From positions 1-52,089 of the forward strand of contig JAOAKI010000013.1 of assembly GCA_026413765.1 (NCBI GenBank): DNA of 52,089 bases. The letters are read 5' to 3'. Position numbers and translations under genes: made by a program. Positions 37,602 through 51,414 of the stretch are shown here, in pieces (the first letter of the stretch is position 1; each line of letters starts with the position of its first letter). Source of the DNA: Microcaldota archaeon (GTDB taxonomy: Archaea; Micrarchaeota; Micrarchaeia; Anstonellales; Anstonellaceae). The notes beneath the pieces were generated by a model. It ran no database searches and had not been told where the DNA came from. It was given only the letters and a program-made list of their open reading frames with translations.

Positions 37602-38411
37602 ATGATAGACATCAGGTATCTCTCATATGGGGCGGCAGGAATTGGCCTTCTTGGGGCTTTGGGATGCTTTGGGGCAGGAGGCAATCCAATCCTCACCTTT
37701 GTATTTGGGCTGATGTGCATGCTTGGCTCAGTAGGAGCGGTTGCCCTCTACAAATACGGCTATTTGATCATCCCGTTTCTCACCAAGCAAGGAAACATCG
37801 TGCAAATAATAGAGGGAGGCTATGAGATACCTCCATCAAACGACGTGATAATAAAGAACGTAGGCGGAATTTATTATGCCTCAAAATTCCTCGGGGTTCG
37901 CATTTTTGAATCTGCATCCGAAAAAAGCACGGAAGAAAACATAGTCTATTCAGAATATTTCGAGCGAGCAATCTCAAGCGTCAAATATGTGACAAAATTT
38001 GCGCTTATGGTCTATATGAAGGACATAACCGAATACCGCAACCGAATTGAGACTAAGCATGCTGAAGCCCAGCTTCGGCTTGCCCGCGAGCGAGACAAGC
38101 CCGACCCAGATGTCCTAAAGCTCGACCGATATGAGAAAGAGGTCGCAATGTGGGAAAACCAGATAAACAAGCTCACAAGAGGGATCAAACCAATGGGGGT
38201 CGTCTCTTACGTGATGACCACCGCAGTCGGAGTAAGCAAAGAAGCAGCAATCGCTGCGGCCACTGCGCAGGCAAACGAGCTGAAAGCAACAATCTCAAAC
38301 GCGCTGAATGTGCAAGTCGAGCTGCTCAGCGGGGACGAGATGCTGCGCTGCTTCCAGTGGGAGACGATGATTCCGCCAAACCCACAAGAGCTTGAGCAAA
38401 CGCTTGTATAG
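37602..38411 (+). CDS. Membrane protein with two N-terminal helices, first gene of the HerA/VirB4-like locus
   Basis: 269 residues, not recognised. Two hydrophobic helices lie near residues 7-27 and 32-55, with a Gly-rich short turn between (CFGAGGNP). The rest is a soluble, probably cytoplasmic domain with strands, a long charged helix (DITEYRNRIETKHAEAQLRLA) and a C-terminal alpha/beta part (YVMTTAVGVSKEAAIAAATAQANELK). It precedes the ATPase with an 11-nt gap and a GGTGTGG site. It could be the membrane partner recruiting the ATPase, as small membrane subunits do in conjugation-like systems. ATG at 37602 chosen: a TTATAA box at 37558-37563 gives a short leader; upstream in-frame starts (37566, 37542) exist. 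Confidence 0.7.
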   Translation: MIDIRYLSYGAAGIGLLGALGCFGAGGNPILTFVFGLMCMLGSVGAVALYKYGYLIIPFLTKQGNIVQIIEGGYEIPPSNDVIIKNVGGIYYASKFLGVRIFESASEKSTEENIVYSEYFERAISSVKYVTKFALMVYMKDITEYRNRIETKHAEAQLRLARERDKPDPDVLKLDRYEKEVAMWENQINKLTRGIKPMGVVSYVMTTAVGVSKEAAIAAATAQANELKATISNALNVQVELLSGDEMLRCFQWETMIPPNPQELEQTLV

Positions 38412-38422
38412 GTGTGGTTTTA

Positions 38423-40015
38423 ATGGGGCGCTTGAAGCTTTCCGAAGTGGATAACGTGGATGTTGCAAGGAGAAATATCTTTGTCCATCCGCCTGAGCCG
38501 CCAGCCGAAGCCTTAATGGCAGACCCAACAAATTCAATCTATATCGGCCGGACGAAAATTTTCCATGTGCCATTCTATTGGACTTTCCAGAAAACAACAA
38601 ACCCGCACATTTGCGTGGTAGGAATCACAGGCTCCGGAAAGTCCTACTTTGTCAAGACTTTCATCACAAGGGCAAGCTTTGTTTGGGGCACAAATGCATT
38701 CATAATAGATTGGGCAGGCGAATACAAGGATTGGGTCAAGCAGACAGGCGGAAAGGTCATCTCGCTTGGGAGAGGCTCTTCAATCAACCTGCTGGACACT
38801 GCCGGCATGAAGCCAAATGACCGCATAAAGCAGATTATGAGGACGCTGGATATCCTCACCGACATTGGGCACTATCCTGAGCAAAGAAGGCTGACTGAGA
38901 TGGCGATTGAAAAGGCGTATGTAAACGCAAAATTCAAGCTCGACTCGAAAATACAGGTCGATGGGCTTGGCAGGCCTCTCAAGCCGCCCACACTCAAAGA
39001 TGTCCAAAAAGTGCTGGAGGACCTTGCAGAATCCGGCACCTATGACTTTCCTGCCGAGCTTGAGAACGCGATCTACCGGATAAGGCAGTTCACAAGGGAA
39101 GGCGAAGATTTTTTCGCTCAGCAATCTACTATCGATTTGGAAAAGCTTACCAAGGGGGGACTTGTTGACCTGGACCTTTCCGGTCTGCCCGACGAGACAT
39201 TCAGGGGGCTTGCAGCCCTCTCAATGCTGCAGTTCATCAAAGAGAAGATGAGGGAAGAAGGCTGGTCCCCAACAAAAGGCCTGAAGCTTCTTGTCGTCCT
39301 TGATGAGGCCTGGAAAATCGCAAAAGATGACAATTCGGATGCAGTCATGATAGTGCGCGAAGGGCGCAAATACCAATTCGGCCTTATCGTCGCATCGCAA
39401 AATCCAACTGACATTTCAGAGGCCATCTTTTCAAACGTCGGAACCACTTTCATCTTGCGCGTCAAGTTCGAGCGCTATCTTGACTATTTGCAGGCAACTT
39501 TGAACTTCTCAGACTACATGAGAAACGAGATTGCAAAACTTGGCGTGGGGCAAGCTGCAGTCAACATGGCATTCCAGACAACTGCAGACTATTCGGACAC
39601 CTTCCTTCTCGAGAAAATCGAAGGCGAAGAGCCGATGCAAGAGTTCTTCTTGGATTTGGAGTCTGTGCTCAGCCAAGAAGAGCTCATGATGGAAGGCACA
39701 ACAAGGTCAGTATCTTTCGAGAAAGAAGAGCTCAAAAAGAAATTGCGCGAGTTTGGGCTTGGCGAAGAGCAAGCAGACGACATAGTCTCGATTTTTGCGG
39801 CAAAGGGCAGGAGGCTGGAAGTTGCCTCATTTGTCATTCTGCTTCAGCGCTATGGAATTGCAAGAAGCCACATCAGCGGGCTTCTGAAGGATTTGGGGCT
39901 GGAGGATTCAGTCGTTGTCTCCATCCTAGCCAGCGCAGACGAGCTTGCAATAAGGCTTGGCGACGAAGATATAACCGAGTATATCTTGGGGGAGGCAAAG
40001 AAAGCGGTGATTTAG
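38423..40015 (+). CDS. HerA/VirB4-family ATPase with extra C-terminal domain
   Basis: 530-residue P-loop ATPase of the HerA-FtsK/VirB4 type, motor of DNA or protein translocation. Walker A GITGSGKSYFVKTF is at residues 67-80. FIIDWAGEYKDW follows, as in VirB4/HerA proteins (D-x-x-G-E-Y). Walker B LLVVLDEAWKI (DEAW at 294-297) and FGLIVASQNPTDISEAIFSNVGTTFIL (sensor-type Gln, arginine region) complete the core. Residues about 430-525 form a separate helical domain (FEKEELKKKLREFGLGEEQ … ITEYIL) that is homologous to the next gene. No membrane helix seen. ATG at 38423 with GGTGTGG upstream. Confidence 0.88.
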   Translation: MGRLKLSEVDNVDVARRNIFVHPPEPPAEALMADPTNSIYIGRTKIFHVPFYWTFQKTTNPHICVVGITGSGKSYFVKTFITRASFVWGTNAFIIDWAGEYKDWVKQTGGKVISLGRGSSINLLDTAGMKPNDRIKQIMRTLDILTDIGHYPEQRRLTEMAIEKAYVNAKFKLDSKIQVDGLGRPLKPPTLKDVQKVLEDLAESGTYDFPAELENAIYRIRQFTREGEDFFAQQSTIDLEKLTKGGLVDLDLSGLPDETFRGLAALSMLQFIKEKMREEGWSPTKGLKLLVVLDEAWKIAKDDNSDAVMIVREGRKYQFGLIVASQNPTDISEAIFSNVGTTFILRVKFERYLDYLQATLNFSDYMRNEIAKLGVGQAAVNMAFQTTADYSDTFLLEKIEGEEPMQEFFLDLESVLSQEELMMEGTTRSVSFEKEELKKKLREFGLGEEQADDIVSIFAAKGRRLEVASFVILLQRYGIARSHISGLLKDLGLEDSVVVSILASADELAIRLGDEDITEYILGEAKKAVI

Positions 40016-40016
40016 G

Positions 40017-40313
40017 ATGGCAAAGACGGTCTTTTTTACCAAAGAGGAGCTTCGCAAAAGGCTGAGGACATTTGGCTTGGATGAGCTGAAAGTTGCCGAG
40101 ATCGCCTCGCTTTTTGACAAAAACAACAAGCATATCGACGTCATTTCGTTTGTCATAATGCTTGAGCGGTTTGGGGTGCAGCGCTCAGACATCTCATCTT
40201 TCTTGCACGATTTGGGGATTGATGAGCCAACCCTTATCAATATTTTTTCGAAAGCAGACTTTACGAGGCTAGGCCTGGGCAACCAGGAAATAACGCAAGT
40301 TGTGCTTGCGTAG
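40017..40313 (+). CDS. Stand-alone copy of the ATPase C-terminal domain
   Basis: 98 residues, begun 1 nt after the ATPase stop. It aligns without gaps to ATPase residues about 428-522: both have F-x-KEEL-(K/R)-K-(K/R)-LR-x-FGL, then SFVI-x-L-x-R-x-G, RS-x-IS-x-x-L-x-DLG and a final IT-x-x-x-L. By eye about 40 of 95 positions are identical. It is a paralogue of that domain, all-helical, possibly an adaptor that competes or pairs with the ATPase tail. No known function. AGG just before the ATG lies in the ATPase stop region, indicating translational coupling. Confidence 0.82.
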   Translation: MAKTVFFTKEELRKRLRTFGLDELKVAEIASLFDKNNKHIDVISFVIMLERFGVQRSDISSFLHDLGIDEPTLINIFSKADFTRLGLGNQEITQVVLA

Positions 40314-40321
40314 GTGAGTTT

Positions 40322-40747
40322 ATGGCAAATGTATGCATCATCTGTGAAAAAGAAAAAAGCGGATTTCCTGTGCAAGACGACTACGTCATCTTGGCGATCA
40401 GAAAAGTGAAGAATTTCTTGCGCATAGCAAAGAACAACAACCTGGTCGTCTGCCAGGATTGCCTGGAGGTCTACCAGAAGAAGAGGGCCAAATACGAAAG
40501 GGACCTTGCAATCCATGCAATAATCGGAGGTTTCATTCTGCTCACAATGATTTTCTTGCCGATATTCACTACGGGTTTCTCACTAACTGCGGTCTTTTTT
40601 GGCTTGCTGCTGTTTGGATTGGTGATGCTGCTGTCAGTCTTTTCCCACTGTCCCAAAATCCAGCAAACAGCTCCAAAAGAAGAAAAAGAGGCAGAGCCAA
40701 GCAATCGCCCCGAGCCAAAAAAGCCTTCCAGAAAGAAGAAAAAGTAA
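40322..40747 (+). CDS. Zinc-ribbon-like membrane protein
   Basis: 141 residues. N-terminal Cys pairs (CIICEKEKSG … NNLVVCQDCLEVYQKK) look like a treble-clef or zinc-ribbon site. Two hydrophobic helices follow (IIGGFILLTMIFLPIF and a second through LLLFGLVMLLSVF), then a Cys and a highly charged, Pro/Lys-rich cytosolic tail ending KKPSRKKKK. Soluble metal-binding domain and basic tail would both face the cytoplasm if the two helices form a hairpin. Fourth gene of the locus, gaps of 8 and 14 nt to its neighbours. Confidence 0.75.
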   Translation: MANVCIICEKEKSGFPVQDDYVILAIRKVKNFLRIAKNNNLVVCQDCLEVYQKKRAKYERDLAIHAIIGGFILLTMIFLPIFTTGFSLTAVFFGLLLFGLVMLLSVFSHCPKIQQTAPKEEKEAEPSNRPEPKKPSRKKKK

Positions 40748-40761
40748 GGTAGGTGTTTGGT

Positions 40762-41514
40762 TTGGTCTTGCCGCAAGCTTCGCCTGCGCAGTCTGCTCAG
40801 TCTCCTGCTGAGCCAAAAGTCAGCGGATTTCGCATACAGGCAAAAAGGCTCAAGCAGCCAACCGAAATCGCCCAAAAGCTTTCCGAGCTTTCTTTCTTGG
40901 AGATGACGGTGGAGAAAGACAGCCTCATTGCACTAAACGTGGAGTCTCGAGATATACAGAAAAACCCATATCTTTTTTCAATCGTGTATTTCAGGCCAAC
41001 AATGATCGAAGTCCTCTATTCATGCCCGCCTACGCTTGCCCCAAAAAAAAGAAGGCTAGATGTATTGAGGCATTTTCTGAATCTCTTGACACTTGTGGAT
41101 GATTGCTACAAAGTTGAAATGAAGCAGATTTACCAGCTGCTTGAGGCTTCATTTGCGCAGCTTAGCGAATATGTCTCGACAGACTATGACAGGCTTTTTG
41201 CCCTCTACGACAATCTCAAGACCGATTTTGCGCAGCTGCAGAAAAAATACAACGACGCAAAAGAGGCAAGCGCAAGCCTCTCAAAAGAAAATTACGAGCT
41301 GAAGACAAAAAATGACGAGCTTACGCTGAAACTCAAGTCGCTTGAGACATTTTCAGACACTATCCTGGCTCTTAAGATACAGGAATGGCTTGCTGAGCAC
41401 AAAGGGGAAATCAACATCGCAGACTTTGCCAAAGTCTACAATGTTCCGGAGACCCGCGTTGAGCAAATGCTCAACAAACTCGTGACAGAAGGTTATTTAG
41501 AGACCAAAGGTTAA
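40762..41514 (+). CDS. Coiled-coil protein with C-terminal winged helix
   Basis: 250 residues, not recognised. Residues about 15-130 form an alpha/beta domain. About 140-200 is a coiled coil (NLKTDFAQLQKKYNDAKEAS … NYELKTKNDELTLKLKSLE). The last 50 residues (IADFAKVYNVPETRVEQMLNKL then VTEGYLETKG) are a winged helix-turn-helix. The TTG at 40762 is preferred because AGGTG lies 6 nt upstream; a GTG at 40753 is the alternative. The winged helix may mediate protein contacts or DNA binding in the ATPase locus. Confidence 0.7.
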   Translation: MVLPQASPAQSAQSPAEPKVSGFRIQAKRLKQPTEIAQKLSELSFLEMTVEKDSLIALNVESRDIQKNPYLFSIVYFRPTMIEVLYSCPPTLAPKKRRLDVLRHFLNLLTLVDDCYKVEMKQIYQLLEASFAQLSEYVSTDYDRLFALYDNLKTDFAQLQKKYNDAKEASASLSKENYELKTKNDELTLKLKSLETFSDTILALKIQEWLAEHKGEINIADFAKVYNVPETRVEQMLNKLVTEGYLETKG

Positions 41515-41535
41515 TCCTCTTTTACTGTGGTAAAA

Positions 41536-44112
41536 ATGGCAGATGACGCACTGAAGCTTAAAATTTCAAAAAAAGCTTATGTTTTTGAATTAAAGAAGAA
41601 ATTCGAGGCAAAAAAGACATTTTCGATCAAAAAAGCCGCCGCCCCGACCCCTGCCGATGCAATAAAAGAGAAGATTGAATCTATTTTCAAAAAAAACGCG
41701 CCAAAAGATGAAAAGCCGTCGCCGCCTTCTGCCCCAAAAAGCACCATTCTTCAGGCTATTGCAGTCGCATTTGTCGTTTTTTTTGGGCTGGTGCTGTTTG
41801 TCTTGATTTCGGTCTTTTCTACTCCAGTTTCGCAGCCGCTCCCACAGCCAAAGCCCCATTTTAGCGGGACACTTTCTTTCAAGATTGACGACTGGCTAAT
41901 GCTGACAAGTCAATCTGGGGAAGAAAACGCATACTCTGCCTACATGCTTGTTTCATATTCTGCCTCCAATCTTTCTTCTCTGAATTTTTCAGTCTCTTTG
42001 TATCCTCAACAGCCTCCAACGCATGTCTTTCTTCTTGATTACCCAAAAGACAGCGCAAGCTCATACAGCTCGTTCAAAAAAGCCCTCACCGCAAACCTCA
42101 AGAAGCACTCGATTGCGGTAAGCGAGATTGGAATCGAAAAGCTGCCCTCTCTTGGGCAAGAAAGCATCTTGATAATCCCGACCGGATATTTTCCGGCAGA
42201 GCTGCTTGGGATTGGAAATTCGTTTACTTACAAGGATTTGCTTGCAAAAGGCGTCACACTCATTTACATTGGGATGCCTTTTGACAACCAGGCGCTCAAC
42301 CAGGATGGCTTGCCTGTCTCAGTCAGCCACCGGTCGCTATCTTTTGACAGAAAAGCAAGGCCTCGCTCAACCGAAGGCTTTAGGCTGTTTAATGCGCAGT
42401 ATGCTGTCTCTTCCTCTCAGGAAGACAAAGAGCTGGTCGTGCGCCCTCAGATTTACGGCTCGGTCTCCCACCTAACCTACAAAAGCGGCTCATTGCTTTT
42501 GCTTCCGCAAAGCCTTGACGGCGGGTGGCGGGAGCGCGATGTTGCAGGAAGCTGGATGGAGAAGGGAGAGGTTGCGGCAGAAGACATTGCAATGCTGATT
42601 TTGCAGCAGCCCTGGACAGCCAGCTTGGACAAAAAAGTGTTCACAGCCAGCCTCAATTCCACAAAGATCTCAATTTTCAGCAATTCTGTTGGGCTGGATC
42701 GCGTCTATGTCAAGCTGGTTGCAACTGCAACCGACCTCAACGGAATCACGCAAAACTTTCTTGAGATTGTCAAGTTGGAAAAAAAGCAGAAAGGCACCCT
42801 TTCGCCTTCCGAGCCAAAGATAATTCCATTTTATCTTTCAGGTCAAAAAGCCCGCCTCAATTTGGCGCTAAGGGAAAACTCCACCTCCCCAGTCAAGCTC
42901 TATGTTGAGATGTACAAGGATGGCCAGCTTCTGCAAAGGACGGACGTGGAGCCCGGGCTTACAATACCCACCACCGAAAAGTCAATAGACCTGCAGGTCA
43001 ATTCTGAGCCAGGAAACTATGTCGTGCTTATCACGGATGACAGCGGCAAAATCTATGCTGGTTGCGAGCTTGAAGTAGCGGATTTGGACATTTCGCTAAA
43101 TTACAGCAACTGGGAAAAAGGGAAATTCTCGTTTTTGCTTTCTTCATTTGGCCAGCCAATCGAGCCGAGAGCAATCTCGGTCAGCATTGACGGAAAGCAT
43201 GAAACATATTATACGCCGGCAATGCTTGCGTTCACTCCCACCGCAACCGTCCTTGAATATTCCTATCCTGAAAAATTCGAAAGCGGAACCTACAATTTCA
43301 TTTTCACAATTGGCGCTTACAAAAAAGTTATAACGCAAGAGTATGTCCGTGTCCCACAAGTCTGGGAAAATCCAGTCGTGCTTCTTTTGGGGTTCCTTTC
43401 CCTTGTGATTACTGTAATTGGCACAATTATGCGAAAGCCAGAGGAAACAAGATATGGTCTGGACATACCCGATTTCCCGCCGCTTTCGACAATCAAGATA
43501 CCCGTCAAACGCCAGACAGTGATGGAAATCTTTGAGTCGGTCAACAACAGCTATTCTTGGCAGAGAATGCCATTGCGACTTGAGGAGATAAAAAACGGCT
43601 TCAGGAAACTTACTTATCAGGGAAAGCCGATTTTGATTGGTGATTTCAACCTTGAAAGGATACTTTCGAAAATGGAGCAAGAGGGGCTGGTAAAGCAAGA
43701 AGCAGGCTATTGGGGGCTTACAAAATGGGAAAAGGAAAGCAACCACTCAATCCACTACCTTACAGTCTATCGCATGCTGAGGAACGCCTTTGTCAACAAT
43801 GCAGTGAAATTTTCCAAGTTGGATGCGATTGAGGAATGCGATGTCAAGGCAATCGCAGCAAACGAAGAGCTTTTCATCCACATAATGGAAAAGCCGTACG
43901 ACAGGCAAATCCACCGCGCGCTTGCGACCGCAAAGAAAGGGACCACGTTGCTTGTTTTCAAGACTAACGATGAAAAGGAAGCGTTCAGGGCACTGCTGAA
44001 CAGCACATCTAAGCTTGCGGTCGCGCTGAAAATGGAAATCGAGAGTGGCAGAATCTTTTTAATCTCTGCAAAAGATGAAATTTCTGCTTTTCTCAAAGGC
44101 TTGATAAGGTAA
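41536..44112 (+). CDS. 858-residue bitopic membrane protein with cytosolic winged-helix tail
   Basis: Not recognised. Order: a Lys-rich cytosolic head of about 70 residues; membrane helix about 70-95 (AIAVAFVVFFGLVLFVLISVF); an extracytoplasmic region of about 510 residues, mostly beta, with Ig-like strands near its end; a second helix about 610-633 (VVLLLGFLSLVITVIGTIM); and a cytosolic C-terminus of about 225 residues with winged-helix features (FNLERILSKMEQEGLVKQEAGYWGL). ATG at 41536 (codon 4 of a GTG-started frame). It looks like a sensor or envelope-spanning scaffold joining outside to the ATPase genes upstream. The next gene starts 4 nt after its stop. Confidence 0.75.
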   Translation: MADDALKLKISKKAYVFELKKKFEAKKTFSIKKAAAPTPADAIKEKIESIFKKNAPKDEKPSPPSAPKSTILQAIAVAFVVFFGLVLFVLISVFSTPVSQPLPQPKPHFSGTLSFKIDDWLMLTSQSGEENAYSAYMLVSYSASNLSSLNFSVSLYPQQPPTHVFLLDYPKDSASSYSSFKKALTANLKKHSIAVSEIGIEKLPSLGQESILIIPTGYFPAELLGIGNSFTYKDLLAKGVTLIYIGMPFDNQALNQDGLPVSVSHRSLSFDRKARPRSTEGFRLFNAQYAVSSSQEDKELVVRPQIYGSVSHLTYKSGSLLLLPQSLDGGWRERDVAGSWMEKGEVAAEDIAMLILQQPWTASLDKKVFTASLNSTKISIFSNSVGLDRVYVKLVATATDLNGITQNFLEIVKLEKKQKGTLSPSEPKIIPFYLSGQKARLNLALRENSTSPVKLYVEMYKDGQLLQRTDVEPGLTIPTTEKSIDLQVNSEPGNYVVLITDDSGKIYAGCELEVADLDISLNYSNWEKGKFSFLLSSFGQPIEPRAISVSIDGKHETYYTPAMLAFTPTATVLEYSYPEKFESGTYNFIFTIGAYKKVITQEYVRVPQVWENPVVLLLGFLSLVITVIGTIMRKPEETRYGLDIPDFPPLSTIKIPVKRQTVMEIFESVNNSYSWQRMPLRLEEIKNGFRKLTYQGKPILIGDFNLERILSKMEQEGLVKQEAGYWGLTKWEKESNHSIHYLTVYRMLRNAFVNNAVKFSKLDAIEECDVKAIAANEELFIHIMEKPYDRQIHRALATAKKGTTLLVFKTNDEKEAFRALLNSTSKLAVALKMEIESGRIFLISAKDEISAFLKGLIR

Positions 44113-48687: not shown

Positions 48688-51414
48688 ATGGCAGACACCG
48701 ACAGGAGCCTTTCGAGGCAAAAGTTGCTTGCTACTGCGCAGATGCTGCGAAGCGACGAGAACATTGGGGGAGCGCTTCTGGTGGCGTTAGGCACGCTTTT
48801 TCTTTTGATTTCGTTCAATTTCTACCCGCTTTTTGTCTCGTTTTTTCTTGCCGCGCTTTCAGGCGCAATAGCTTACAGCCGGCCGCCGCTTGGCACAATT
48901 TTTGGGATGCTTGTGGGATTTCCTGCGGTTTCTTACCAGTCGCCTGTACTTGCATGGGTTTTTTGCGCAGCAGTGGCAATCACGCTTTTTGAGGCTTTCG
49001 AGCACTGGAGCACAATATCATTCTTGAAAATCGCAATCTTTCTTCCATTTGCCCCCCCTCCAATCTCATATATTTCAGGCTTTCTGATGCTTTTCCTTGC
49101 AATAGCTGCATTCAGGTTCGGCAGCAGGCATTCGCTTTTCATTTCGCTCCCCTCAGTTTTCATCGTTCTTCTGCTTTCGACATTGTGGCTTCAGCCCACT
49201 TCTTCGTTTGTCACAATCTCAAACGATTATCTTTCCCTTTATGGCCCTGGGATGCCGCAGCTTTTGAACAACGAAAAGCCGCAGGTTGAGCTTGGGCAGC
49301 TTTTCGCAGAAGCCTCAAACTCGTTTTGGATGCTTTTTGATGCAGAAAACATCCGCCTCTTTTCGGAGGCAATTGGCCTGATATTTTCAAACACCGCAAA
49401 GCTTTTCACTGTTGATTTTGCCTTTCTGCAGCTTTTTGCATGGGCGATTGCGCTTTTTGCTTGCGCAAGCCTGCCGCCAAAAATAGAGGACGGAAGCTTC
49501 CTGTTTTTTGTCAAGCCGCAGACAAGGGCAAAATACAAGCAGACAATCGCCTCGCTTTCCCTTTTCATAATCCCGCTAAACAATCTCTTTTTTGCCGCAT
49601 CGTTCAACAACCCAATCCAGCCAGCCTCATTTGCCTATTGCGCGGCAACCGTTGCCATCATTTCTGCAATCGAGCATTTCGGGATTTCGCTTTCCCGCGA
49701 GAAAATTGTTTTGCGCAGGCAAAAGCAGAAGGCATTTGGGAAGTTTGGGCTGCAGGATCTTTCTGAGTCAGACGGCGTCCAATCGCTTGCCGACGTTGGC
49801 GGATATGAGGATGTCAAAAGCGAGCTTCGGGAGGCAATCATCGCGCCGCTGAAGCAAAAAGAGCTTGCATACACTTATGGGATAAAGCCGCCAACCGGAA
49901 TACTGTTTTTTGGCCCGCCTGGCACCGGAAAAACCCTATTGATGAAGGCGCTTGCCAAAGAGCTTGACTTGCCATTTTATTATGTCAAATGTTCCGATCT
50001 GCTGTCAGAGTGGTACGGAGAAAGCGAAAAAAACGTGGCAGAAGTGTTTGCGATTGCAAGGAAGAATGCGCCCTGCGTGCTCTTCTTTGATGAGATTGAC
50101 TCGATTGGCAAAAGAAGGGACGCCTATTCAAATGATGATGTGGCGCCGCGCGTGATGTCGGTGCTTCTTTCCGAGCTGGATGGCTTCAAGGGCAAAAAGA
50201 ACGTGATAACAATCGGGGCGACCAATGTGCCTGACCAGCTTGACCCGGCGCTCATGAGGCCGGGCAGGTTTGACAAGATAATCTACATGCCGCTTCCTGA
50301 TTTTGAGGCAAGGAAGGCAATCTTCAAGGTGCATCTCAAAAAGCTGCCTGTTGCGCCTGACATTGATTTTGACAAGCTGGCTTCGATGACCGAGCGCTAT
50401 TCTGGAGCGGACATAAAAAACATCTGTACTGAGGCCTCGCGGGAGGCTGCAAGAGAGGCAATAAAATCCGATGTTGTTGTCCCAATCTCAATGAAGCACC
50501 TCACCTTGATGATAAAGAGAATCAAGCCCTCTGTCAGCTTGGACATGCTTGAAAGCTACAACAAATTCAGGATGGACTATGAAAGGAGAAGCAGGGCGGA
50601 GGAGAAGAAGCCGGATGAGCGGCAGGTTCGCTGGGAGGATGTGGCGGGCCTTGAGGAGGTGCGCCGCATACTGCTTGAGTCAATCGAGTTGCCTCTGTTG
50701 CATGAGGATTTGATGAAAGAGATGGATGTCAAGCCTTCGAAAGGCTTGCTTTTATTTGGCCCGCCAGGATGCGGAAAGACGATGATTGTCAAGGCTGCGG
50801 CAAACGAGCTTTCCGCCAACTTCCTTTCAATTTCAGGCTCCGAGCTGATGCGCGGCAGCCGCTCCCCTGTTGTGGTGGTGCGCGAGATTTTCAACCGCGC
50901 GCGGGAAAGCGCGCCCGCATTGATTTTCATTGACGAAATTGAGGCGCTTGCCCCAAGCAGGGAGCACTACAGCGGAGGAATTCTCTCCGAGCTTCTGCAG
51001 GAAATCGATGGCATTAAAGAGCTGAAAAACGTTATGATAATTGGCGCTACAAACAAGCCATCCGCGCTTGACCCTGCGATTTTGCGCCCTGGAAGGTTCG
51101 ACAAAATCATCTATATTCCGCCTCCCGACCTGCAGGCGCGAAAGCAAATCTTTGCAAGCAATTTGGCCAAATTCCTCGAAAGGCTTGACTTGAATGCGCT
51201 TGCAGCCGCAACCGAAGGATTTTCAGGAGCAGACATTGCGTCAATCTGCCAAGATGTCAAAATGCAGCTTGTGCGCAACCGGCTCAAAGGCAAGCCATCA
51301 ACTCTGACTACTGCAGATGTGATGGAAGTGATTTCAAAAAGAAGGCCATCGATTACTCAAAAAGACCTCAAAGAATACATTGCTTTCATGCACGAATATG
51401 GAGAAAGAAAATAA
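48688..51414 (+). CDS. Membrane-anchored double AAA+ ATPase (Cdc48/p97-like)
   Basis: 908 residues. About 1-330 form a hydrophobic domain with roughly 8-9 helices in place of the usual soluble Cdc48 N-domain. Two AAA+ modules follow. D1: Walker A GPPGTGKT at 409-416, Walker B VLFFDEIDS, RPGRFDK with arginine fingers. D2: Walker A GPPGCGKT at 691-698, Walker B LIFIDEIEAL, RPGRFDK. Linker and helical lids (YSGADIKNICTEA, FSGADIASICQDV) are typical of the VCP/NVL group. Likely an unfoldase or segregase at the membrane, perhaps acting on membrane or secreted proteins such as the neighbouring S-layer precursor; that substrate is a guess. Leaderless ATG at 48688. Confidence 0.92.
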   Translation: MADTDRSLSRQKLLATAQMLRSDENIGGALLVALGTLFLLISFNFYPLFVSFFLAALSGAIAYSRPPLGTIFGMLVGFPAVSYQSPVLAWVFCAAVAITLFEAFEHWSTISFLKIAIFLPFAPPPISYISGFLMLFLAIAAFRFGSRHSLFISLPSVFIVLLLSTLWLQPTSSFVTISNDYLSLYGPGMPQLLNNEKPQVELGQLFAEASNSFWMLFDAENIRLFSEAIGLIFSNTAKLFTVDFAFLQLFAWAIALFACASLPPKIEDGSFLFFVKPQTRAKYKQTIASLSLFIIPLNNLFFAASFNNPIQPASFAYCAATVAIISAIEHFGISLSREKIVLRRQKQKAFGKFGLQDLSESDGVQSLADVGGYEDVKSELREAIIAPLKQKELAYTYGIKPPTGILFFGPPGTGKTLLMKALAKELDLPFYYVKCSDLLSEWYGESEKNVAEVFAIARKNAPCVLFFDEIDSIGKRRDAYSNDDVAPRVMSVLLSELDGFKGKKNVITIGATNVPDQLDPALMRPGRFDKIIYMPLPDFEARKAIFKVHLKKLPVAPDIDFDKLASMTERYSGADIKNICTEASREAAREAIKSDVVVPISMKHLTLMIKRIKPSVSLDMLESYNKFRMDYERRSRAEEKKPDERQVRWEDVAGLEEVRRILLESIELPLLHEDLMKEMDVKPSKGLLLFGPPGCGKTMIVKAAANELSANFLSISGSELMRGSRSPVVVVREIFNRARESAPALIFIDEIEALAPSREHYSGGILSELLQEIDGIKELKNVMIIGATNKPSALDPAILRPGRFDKIIYIPPPDLQARKQIFASNLAKFLERLDLNALAAATEGFSGADIASICQDVKMQLVRNRLKGKPSTLTTADVMEVISKRRPSITQKDLKEYIAFMHEYGERK

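Follow-up and report, generated by a model that had tools for sequence, protein, structure and literature searches.

A conserved Micrarchaeota operon that resembles the membrane motor of an ancient machine for transfer between cells

The Ced system of Sulfolobales, consisting of CedA, CedA1, CedB, CedD and CedE, is, with Ted in Crenarchaeota, among the nearest described counterparts of the Micrarchaeota operon analysed here (PMC11868833, PMC9905601). Ced and the Micrarchaeota system are both chromosomal, use two paralogous ATPases of the HerA/VirB4 type and combine VirB4-like N-terminal domains and transmembrane (TM) anchors with a small pilin of two TM helices and a CedA-like channel, which is putative in Micrarchaeota; a relaxase is essentially absent. 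The Micrarchaeota ATPases are nearest to CedB and CedD, which are also a precedent for divergent VirB4 domains with split functions (PMC11868833). In contrast to Ced, the Micrarchaeota N-terminal domain is a gene of its own, sometimes tandemly duplicated, genes 4 to 6 of the operon have no Ced counterpart and each genome holds about 10-16 CedA-like matches. The Micrarchaeota system is phylum-wide whereas Ced is crenarchaeal, and its scores are far under the curated Ced cut-offs.

Other relatives share some of these traits. The VirB3/PrgI-VirB4 proteins, namely TrwM/TrwK of R388 and the full-length PrgI-VirB4 fusions of about 1020-1140 aa that some Micrarchaeota encode additionally (L198, L199, L200, L205), have the same layout of two TM helices, N-terminal domain and ATPase, a fold that the model of gene 1 matches and a related ATPase. 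The operon version, however, is split in two genes, with a divergent N-domain sequence, an ATPase of a separate clade, no relaxase and essentially no VirD4. Among ultra-small symbionts, the Patescibacteria have a near-universal chromosomal VirB4 with VirB2/VirB6-like parts (PMC12102498), but they keep TrsD/VirD4 and an unsplit VirB4, and the ATPase affiliation and the partner genes are different. In nanohaloarchaea, likewise DPANN symbionts, an Ig-like outside region is tied to a VirB4-type motor in one giant SPEARE-type VirB4/TraG polypeptide (PMC10266531), whereas the Micrarchaeota have separate, phylum-conserved genes of ordinary size (861 aa). HerA-NurA shares the ATPase superfamily; the operon ATPase differs in having a membrane anchor and neither a HAS barrel nor a NurA partner, and the genuine HerA is separate. 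In the literature searched, which excluded most subscription papers and preprints, we found no account of a Micrarchaeota system of this kind, and its novelty is therefore provisional. The paper on Mia14 names type IV pili together with SecDF and Tat, but no split-VirB4 system (PMC5498576).

Architecture and conservation of the operon

The window, a stretch of 52,089 nucleotides, belongs as contig 5 to a Micrarchaeota MAG of 840 kb, and the genomes closest to it are MAGs of the same phylum. The first-pass annotation had described six closely packed genes on one strand between 37602 and 44112, and all six were found there with intergenic gaps of 1-12 nt:

37602..38411, forward strand: gene 1 (269 aa), VirB4 N-terminal domain preceded by two TM helices, as predicted with AlphaFold2 and Foldseek
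38414..40015, forward strand, probable start 38423: gene 2 (533 aa), VirB4/CedB/CedD-type ATPase with a C-terminal tail domain
38621..38644, forward strand: Walker A of gene 2, GITGSGKS, residues 70-77 (alignment A5)
39302..39307, forward strand: acidic pair D297-E298 of Walker B in gene 2, invariant in alignment A5
40017..40313, forward strand: gene 3 (98 aa), the tail domain of the ATPase copied as a gene of its own
40322..40747, forward strand: gene 4 (141 aa), hairpin of two TM helices behind an N-terminus rich in Cys (zinc-finger-like)
40753..41514, forward strand: gene 5 (253 aa), C-terminal winged helix (wHTH) behind an alpha/beta N-domain and a coiled coil
41527..44112, forward strand: gene 6 (861 aa), bitopic with the N-terminus inside (AlphaFold2, pLDDT 85)

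The three membrane proteins that the annotation had counted were recovered (P0001, P0004 and P0006), as were its two winged helices, with wHTH-like domains in P0005 by weak profile matches and in P0006 by the model.

The neighbourhood was analysed in 56 named loci of relatives, taking for each gene the loci with enough flank to test it. Gene 1 was present in 52/52, gene 4 in 53/53, gene 5 in 48/48 and gene 6 in 44/44 testable loci, and the order 1-2-4-5-6 was kept in all 41 loci that could be tested for it, which is far beyond chance. The co-occurrence of the partners with the ATPase, which the annotation had proposed as a check, was thus observed. The operon ATPase itself was found in 59/59 relatives searched. 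Intact operon copies are about 51-85% identical to it; in a few relatives the copy is partial or absent from the contig. The proposed six-gene unit holds for genes 1-2-4-5-6 and not for gene 3, which is a separate gene in only 12/56 loci and is a lineage-specific extra. It is 41% identical to residues 430-526 of the ATPase, as expected of the duplicated tail domain that had been noticed before. Glycosyltransferases were considered as further members and rejected: among the loci that could be tested, a GT4 gene lies directly 3' of gene 6 in only 12/34 and 5' of gene 1 in only 5/41, which places these genes outside the conserved unit. Close to the operon, at 48688-51414 of the window, a membrane-anchored CDC48-like AAA protein is encoded; look-alikes, judged by eye, adjoin pilin genes in other genomes (L123:14643-17312 and L126:181-4392).

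For genes 4 to 6 no counterpart in type IV secretion systems (T4SS) was identified. Profile searches with gene 4 returned weak Zn-ribbon-type matches only. The wHTH domain of gene 5 resembles the winged helix of CdvB (2xvc, E 2.8e-4). In the model of gene 6, a TM helix (71-97) is followed by an outside domain (115-606, alpha/beta and then Ig-like), a second TM helix (616-634) and a cytosolic wHTH with an alpha/beta part (662-860), which places about 490 residues outside between the two helices. The Foldseek matches were generic Ig-repeat adhesins with low TM-scores and pointed to no specific family; the outside half is Ig-like and adhesin-like as modelled. Conservation was 0.58 in the cytosolic wHTH versus 0.35-0.41 in the outside half, and the orthologues had 1.05 N-glycosylation sequons per 100 aa outside versus 0.37 in the cytosolic part. 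Both differences are consistent with the predicted topology and with a variable outer face.

A probable VirB4 motor split over two genes

Gene 2 encodes a RecA-like ATPase of the VirB4/TraG/HerA superfamily, as judged by profiles and by the alignment, with Walker A and B motifs. The two motifs had been reported before; GITGSGKS and LDEAW are nearly invariant across the aligned homologues. Since the orthologues begin with MG.L, translation probably starts at the ATG at 38423. The Pfam models DUF87, AAA_10 and TraG P-loop matched above cut-off, and a HAS barrel was not found by Pfam. Among the NCBIfam models, CedD (78.4 bits) and CedB (78.0 bits) were followed by VirB4-type models and then by HerA at 50, all under the equivalog cut-offs, which are 600 for CedD and 700 for CedB. 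With the ATPase of the fused PrgI-VirB4 proteins, hhalign gave an E-value of 1.9e-23. In a tree of the ATPase cores, the operon ATPases formed one clade (100/100) and HerA a separate one (100/100), with the ATPases of a second operon beside the operon clade and the fused PrgI-VirB4 proteins elsewhere; the deep joins are limited by long branches.

The AlphaFold2 model of gene 1 (pLDDT 86, from an alignment of 49 sequences) shows two TM helices, behind which comes a domain of mixed alpha/beta structure that contains a helical hairpin. When this model was searched with Foldseek against 350,542 PDB chains, the top four matches were all VirB4/TrwK of R388 (E 1.3e-3 to 6.3e-3, probability 1.00), whereas the fifth (E 0.14, probability 0.33) was background. 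The TM-score to R388 VirB4 was 0.39, so the likeness is one of topology and not a close one. Sequence-profile searches of PDB and Pfam with alignment A2 gave nothing significant, nor did the NCBIfam models or hhalign against the fused PrgI-VirB4 of other Micrarchaeota, and the predicted match is therefore one of structure alone. Since the VirB4-type fold adjoins the ATPase gene, genes 1 and 2 appear to be a split, membrane-anchored VirB4, with the N-terminal domain encoded in the gene next to that of the ATPase. The ATPase, labelled HerA/VirB4-type earlier, is of the VirB4/Ced kind and not HerA, and the system, whose other genes had been left unrecognised, is recognisable. In six loci (L062, L069, L075, L079, L082, L089) the N-domain gene is tandemly duplicated ahead of a single ATPase gene.

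Pilins, channel-like proteins and a second operon

The first-pass annotation had seen no pilin. VirB2-like pilins, with a signal peptide, two TM helices and a G-A-E-x-R-x-R motif, are encoded elsewhere in the genome of the window. In other lineages they adjoin the operon, directly 5' of gene 1 in L056, L062, L069, L086 (three in tandem) and L089. Their best Pfam matches were usually T4SS_pilin and TrbC, at sub-threshold scores. All 59 relatives have such pilins, often in tandem arrays. In 295 genomes of the phylum, counted by hand, gene 1 was found in 256 and the pilins in 254; both were present in 246, neither in 31, and 18 were discordant (Fisher p 6e-26, with the genomes treated as independent and shared ancestry ignored). 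Within the family f21, some genera keep gene 1 and the pilins and other genera are without both. The operon in the window has neither a pilin nor a channel gene; both lie on other contigs of its genome. Two tandem pilin arrays are located at contig ends (G000:C13:9784-10710 and G000:C7:61622-62138), where the assembly was probably interrupted by the repeats.

A paralogous ATPase (ATPase2) is near-universal in the relatives. It is followed by a paralogue of gene 5, so that gene 5 accompanies the ATPase in both operons and is a probable motor partner. In many genera a paralogue of gene 1 and a protein with five TM helices (5TM) are encoded ahead of ATPase2, and some second operons also have a short pilin-like protein with two TM helices upstream, in the order pilin, 5TM, gene 1-like, ATPase2, gene 5-like. 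In the genome of the window the parts of this second operon are present and dispersed:

C10:2433-3194: gene 1-like protein
C10:16410-17786: ATPase2
C10:58419-59372: 5TM protein

The 5TM family, whose gene lies beside the paralogous VirB4 module, was found in 58/59 relatives. The recurrent named matches of the family and its paralogues were CedA and CedE only, weak and under the cut-off throughout; no CedA was found over its curated cut-off in any of the 59 genomes. Such CedA/VirB6-like membrane proteins, about 10-16 matches per genome, also occur in tandem blocks of six, two of them in the genome of the window and others in L171, L172 and L173:

L169:9820-16858 (contig C1), reverse strand: CedA/VirB6-like block
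L170:1505-11747 (contig C14), forward strand: CedA/VirB6-like block

One block lies beside two multi-TM proteins resembling SecD/SecF, and another is followed by secreted proteins of 1366 and 1050 residues. The protein at L169:15464-16858 has a Cys-rich, knottin-like insert with weak Pfam matches to small-toxin families, which is probably just a disulfide-rich loop.

Proposed function and its alternatives

We consider it likely that the operon is the motor unit of a chromosomal, domesticated T4SS-like apparatus, comparable to Ced, which would build VirB2-type pili and move macromolecules across the envelope. This reading is based on the gene order, the fold of gene 1, the affiliation of the ATPase, the VirB6- and VirB2-like genes in the paralogous operon, the phylum-wide distribution and the near absence of relaxase and VirD4; the identity of the motor is well supported. 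A coherent translocation-type system had been suggested before, and the conserved gene order and the split VirB4 of the T4SS/Ced kind strengthen that suggestion. Against it we counted that the putative pilin and CedA matches are all under the curated cut-offs. In the proposed mechanism, the membrane-anchored N-domain of gene 1 and the C-terminal ATPase of gene 2 would assemble into an oligomeric VirB4 ring beneath the membrane. Genes 4 to 6 would be lineage-specific additions: gene 5 would serve the ring as a soluble partner or adaptor, while genes 4 and 6 would connect it with the membrane and the exterior, where the Ig-like outer domain of gene 6 would face a partner cell. The ring would extract the VirB2-like pilins from the membrane and drive macromolecules through the CedA/VirB6-like five-helix channels, possibly at contacts with the host. 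For the substrate and its direction, DNA import is slightly favoured over protein export.

That gene 2 is the end-resection ATPase of HerA-NurA in an unusual neighbourhood is highly improbable, in spite of its DUF87 domain and of a NurA that is encoded in 42/59 relatives and in the genome of the window, on a contig without the operon. As the earlier annotation had held, the locus is not HerA-NurA repair: gene 2 has no HAS barrel, and HerA, a distinct 100/100 clade, is encoded separately with a HAS barrel (G000:C1:16680-18125). Seven of the eight genomes without a strong HerA are also without NurA (Fisher p 3.8e-4, the genomes not being independent), whereas all eight keep the operon ATPase. 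The annotation had regarded a known HerA with nurA elsewhere as an argument against a distinct system. Its nurA part was found and the operon ATPase did not turn out to be HerA; since a separate HAS-barrel HerA exists for NurA, NurA elsewhere does not count against the operon. We also doubt that the operon serves chromosome segregation or division through a HerA/FtsK-type DNA pump tethered to the membrane, whose wHTH proteins would bind DNA and which would have no link to secretion or pili. Such a pump would fit a core gene kept in all 59 relatives, including genomes of 500-600 kb, the ATPase superfamily, and two wHTH proteins, of which that of gene 5 resembles CdvB's. Against it stand the VirB4-type N-domain, the genes for a pilin and a CedA-like protein that the sister operon carries, the joint retention or loss of gene 1 and the pilins, the large outside domain of gene 6 and the existence of a separate HerA.

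An ordinary conjugative element was rejected as well, since relaxase and VirD4 are essentially absent and the operon is universal and vertically conserved in place. The one relaxase family searched, PF03432, was over cut-off in 0/59 genomes and VirD4 (PF02534) in 3/59, with none of either in the genome of the window, and no relative of the operon was found in viral contigs. A T4SS-like exporter that pushes protein effectors into the host, a role suggested for such systems in Patescibacteria and nanohaloarchaea, differs from the transfer motor favoured here in the substrate only, and is possible, if the less probable version. The symbiotic lineage, the absent relaxase, the wide retention of T4SS in Patescibacteria (PMC12102498), the large secreted proteins beside VirB6-like clusters and the giant Ig-like VirB4-linked proteins by which nanohaloarchaea have been proposed to subjugate their hosts (PMC10266531) are in line with it. 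However, neither an effector nor a VirD4-type receptor was identified, and the nearest named ATPases, CedB and CedD, are DNA-transfer motors.

The operon bears on how Micrarchaeota obtain from their hosts what they cannot make. By cryo-EM, ARMAN cells were seen to contact Thermoplasmatales cells through pili and bridges that resemble synapses (PMC4110969). As a tentative extension of the T4SS-like reading, we speculate that a phylum-wide host-interface nanomachine might consist of a pair of split-VirB4 motors, VirB2-like pilins in tandem arrays and six-channel CedA/VirB6-like blocks followed by giant secreted proteins. It would be the machinery behind these pili and bridges, and in it gene 6 would be the contact receptor whose Ig-like outside domain signals via the cytosolic wHTH to the motor. 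With motor, pilin and channel candidates named, the exchange between Micrarchaeota and hosts becomes testable in existing co-cultures. The operon presents a VirB4 cut into two genes. On the favoured reading, machines of the T4SS/Ced type are, outside Crenarchaeota too, a chromosomal trait shared by a whole phylum, a parallel to the Patescibacteria. Found in nearly every Micrarchaeota genome, this operon has the look of a membrane motor from an ancient machine that is related to type IV secretion and transfers molecules between cells, and is a testable candidate for how tiny symbiotic archaea swap molecules with their hosts.
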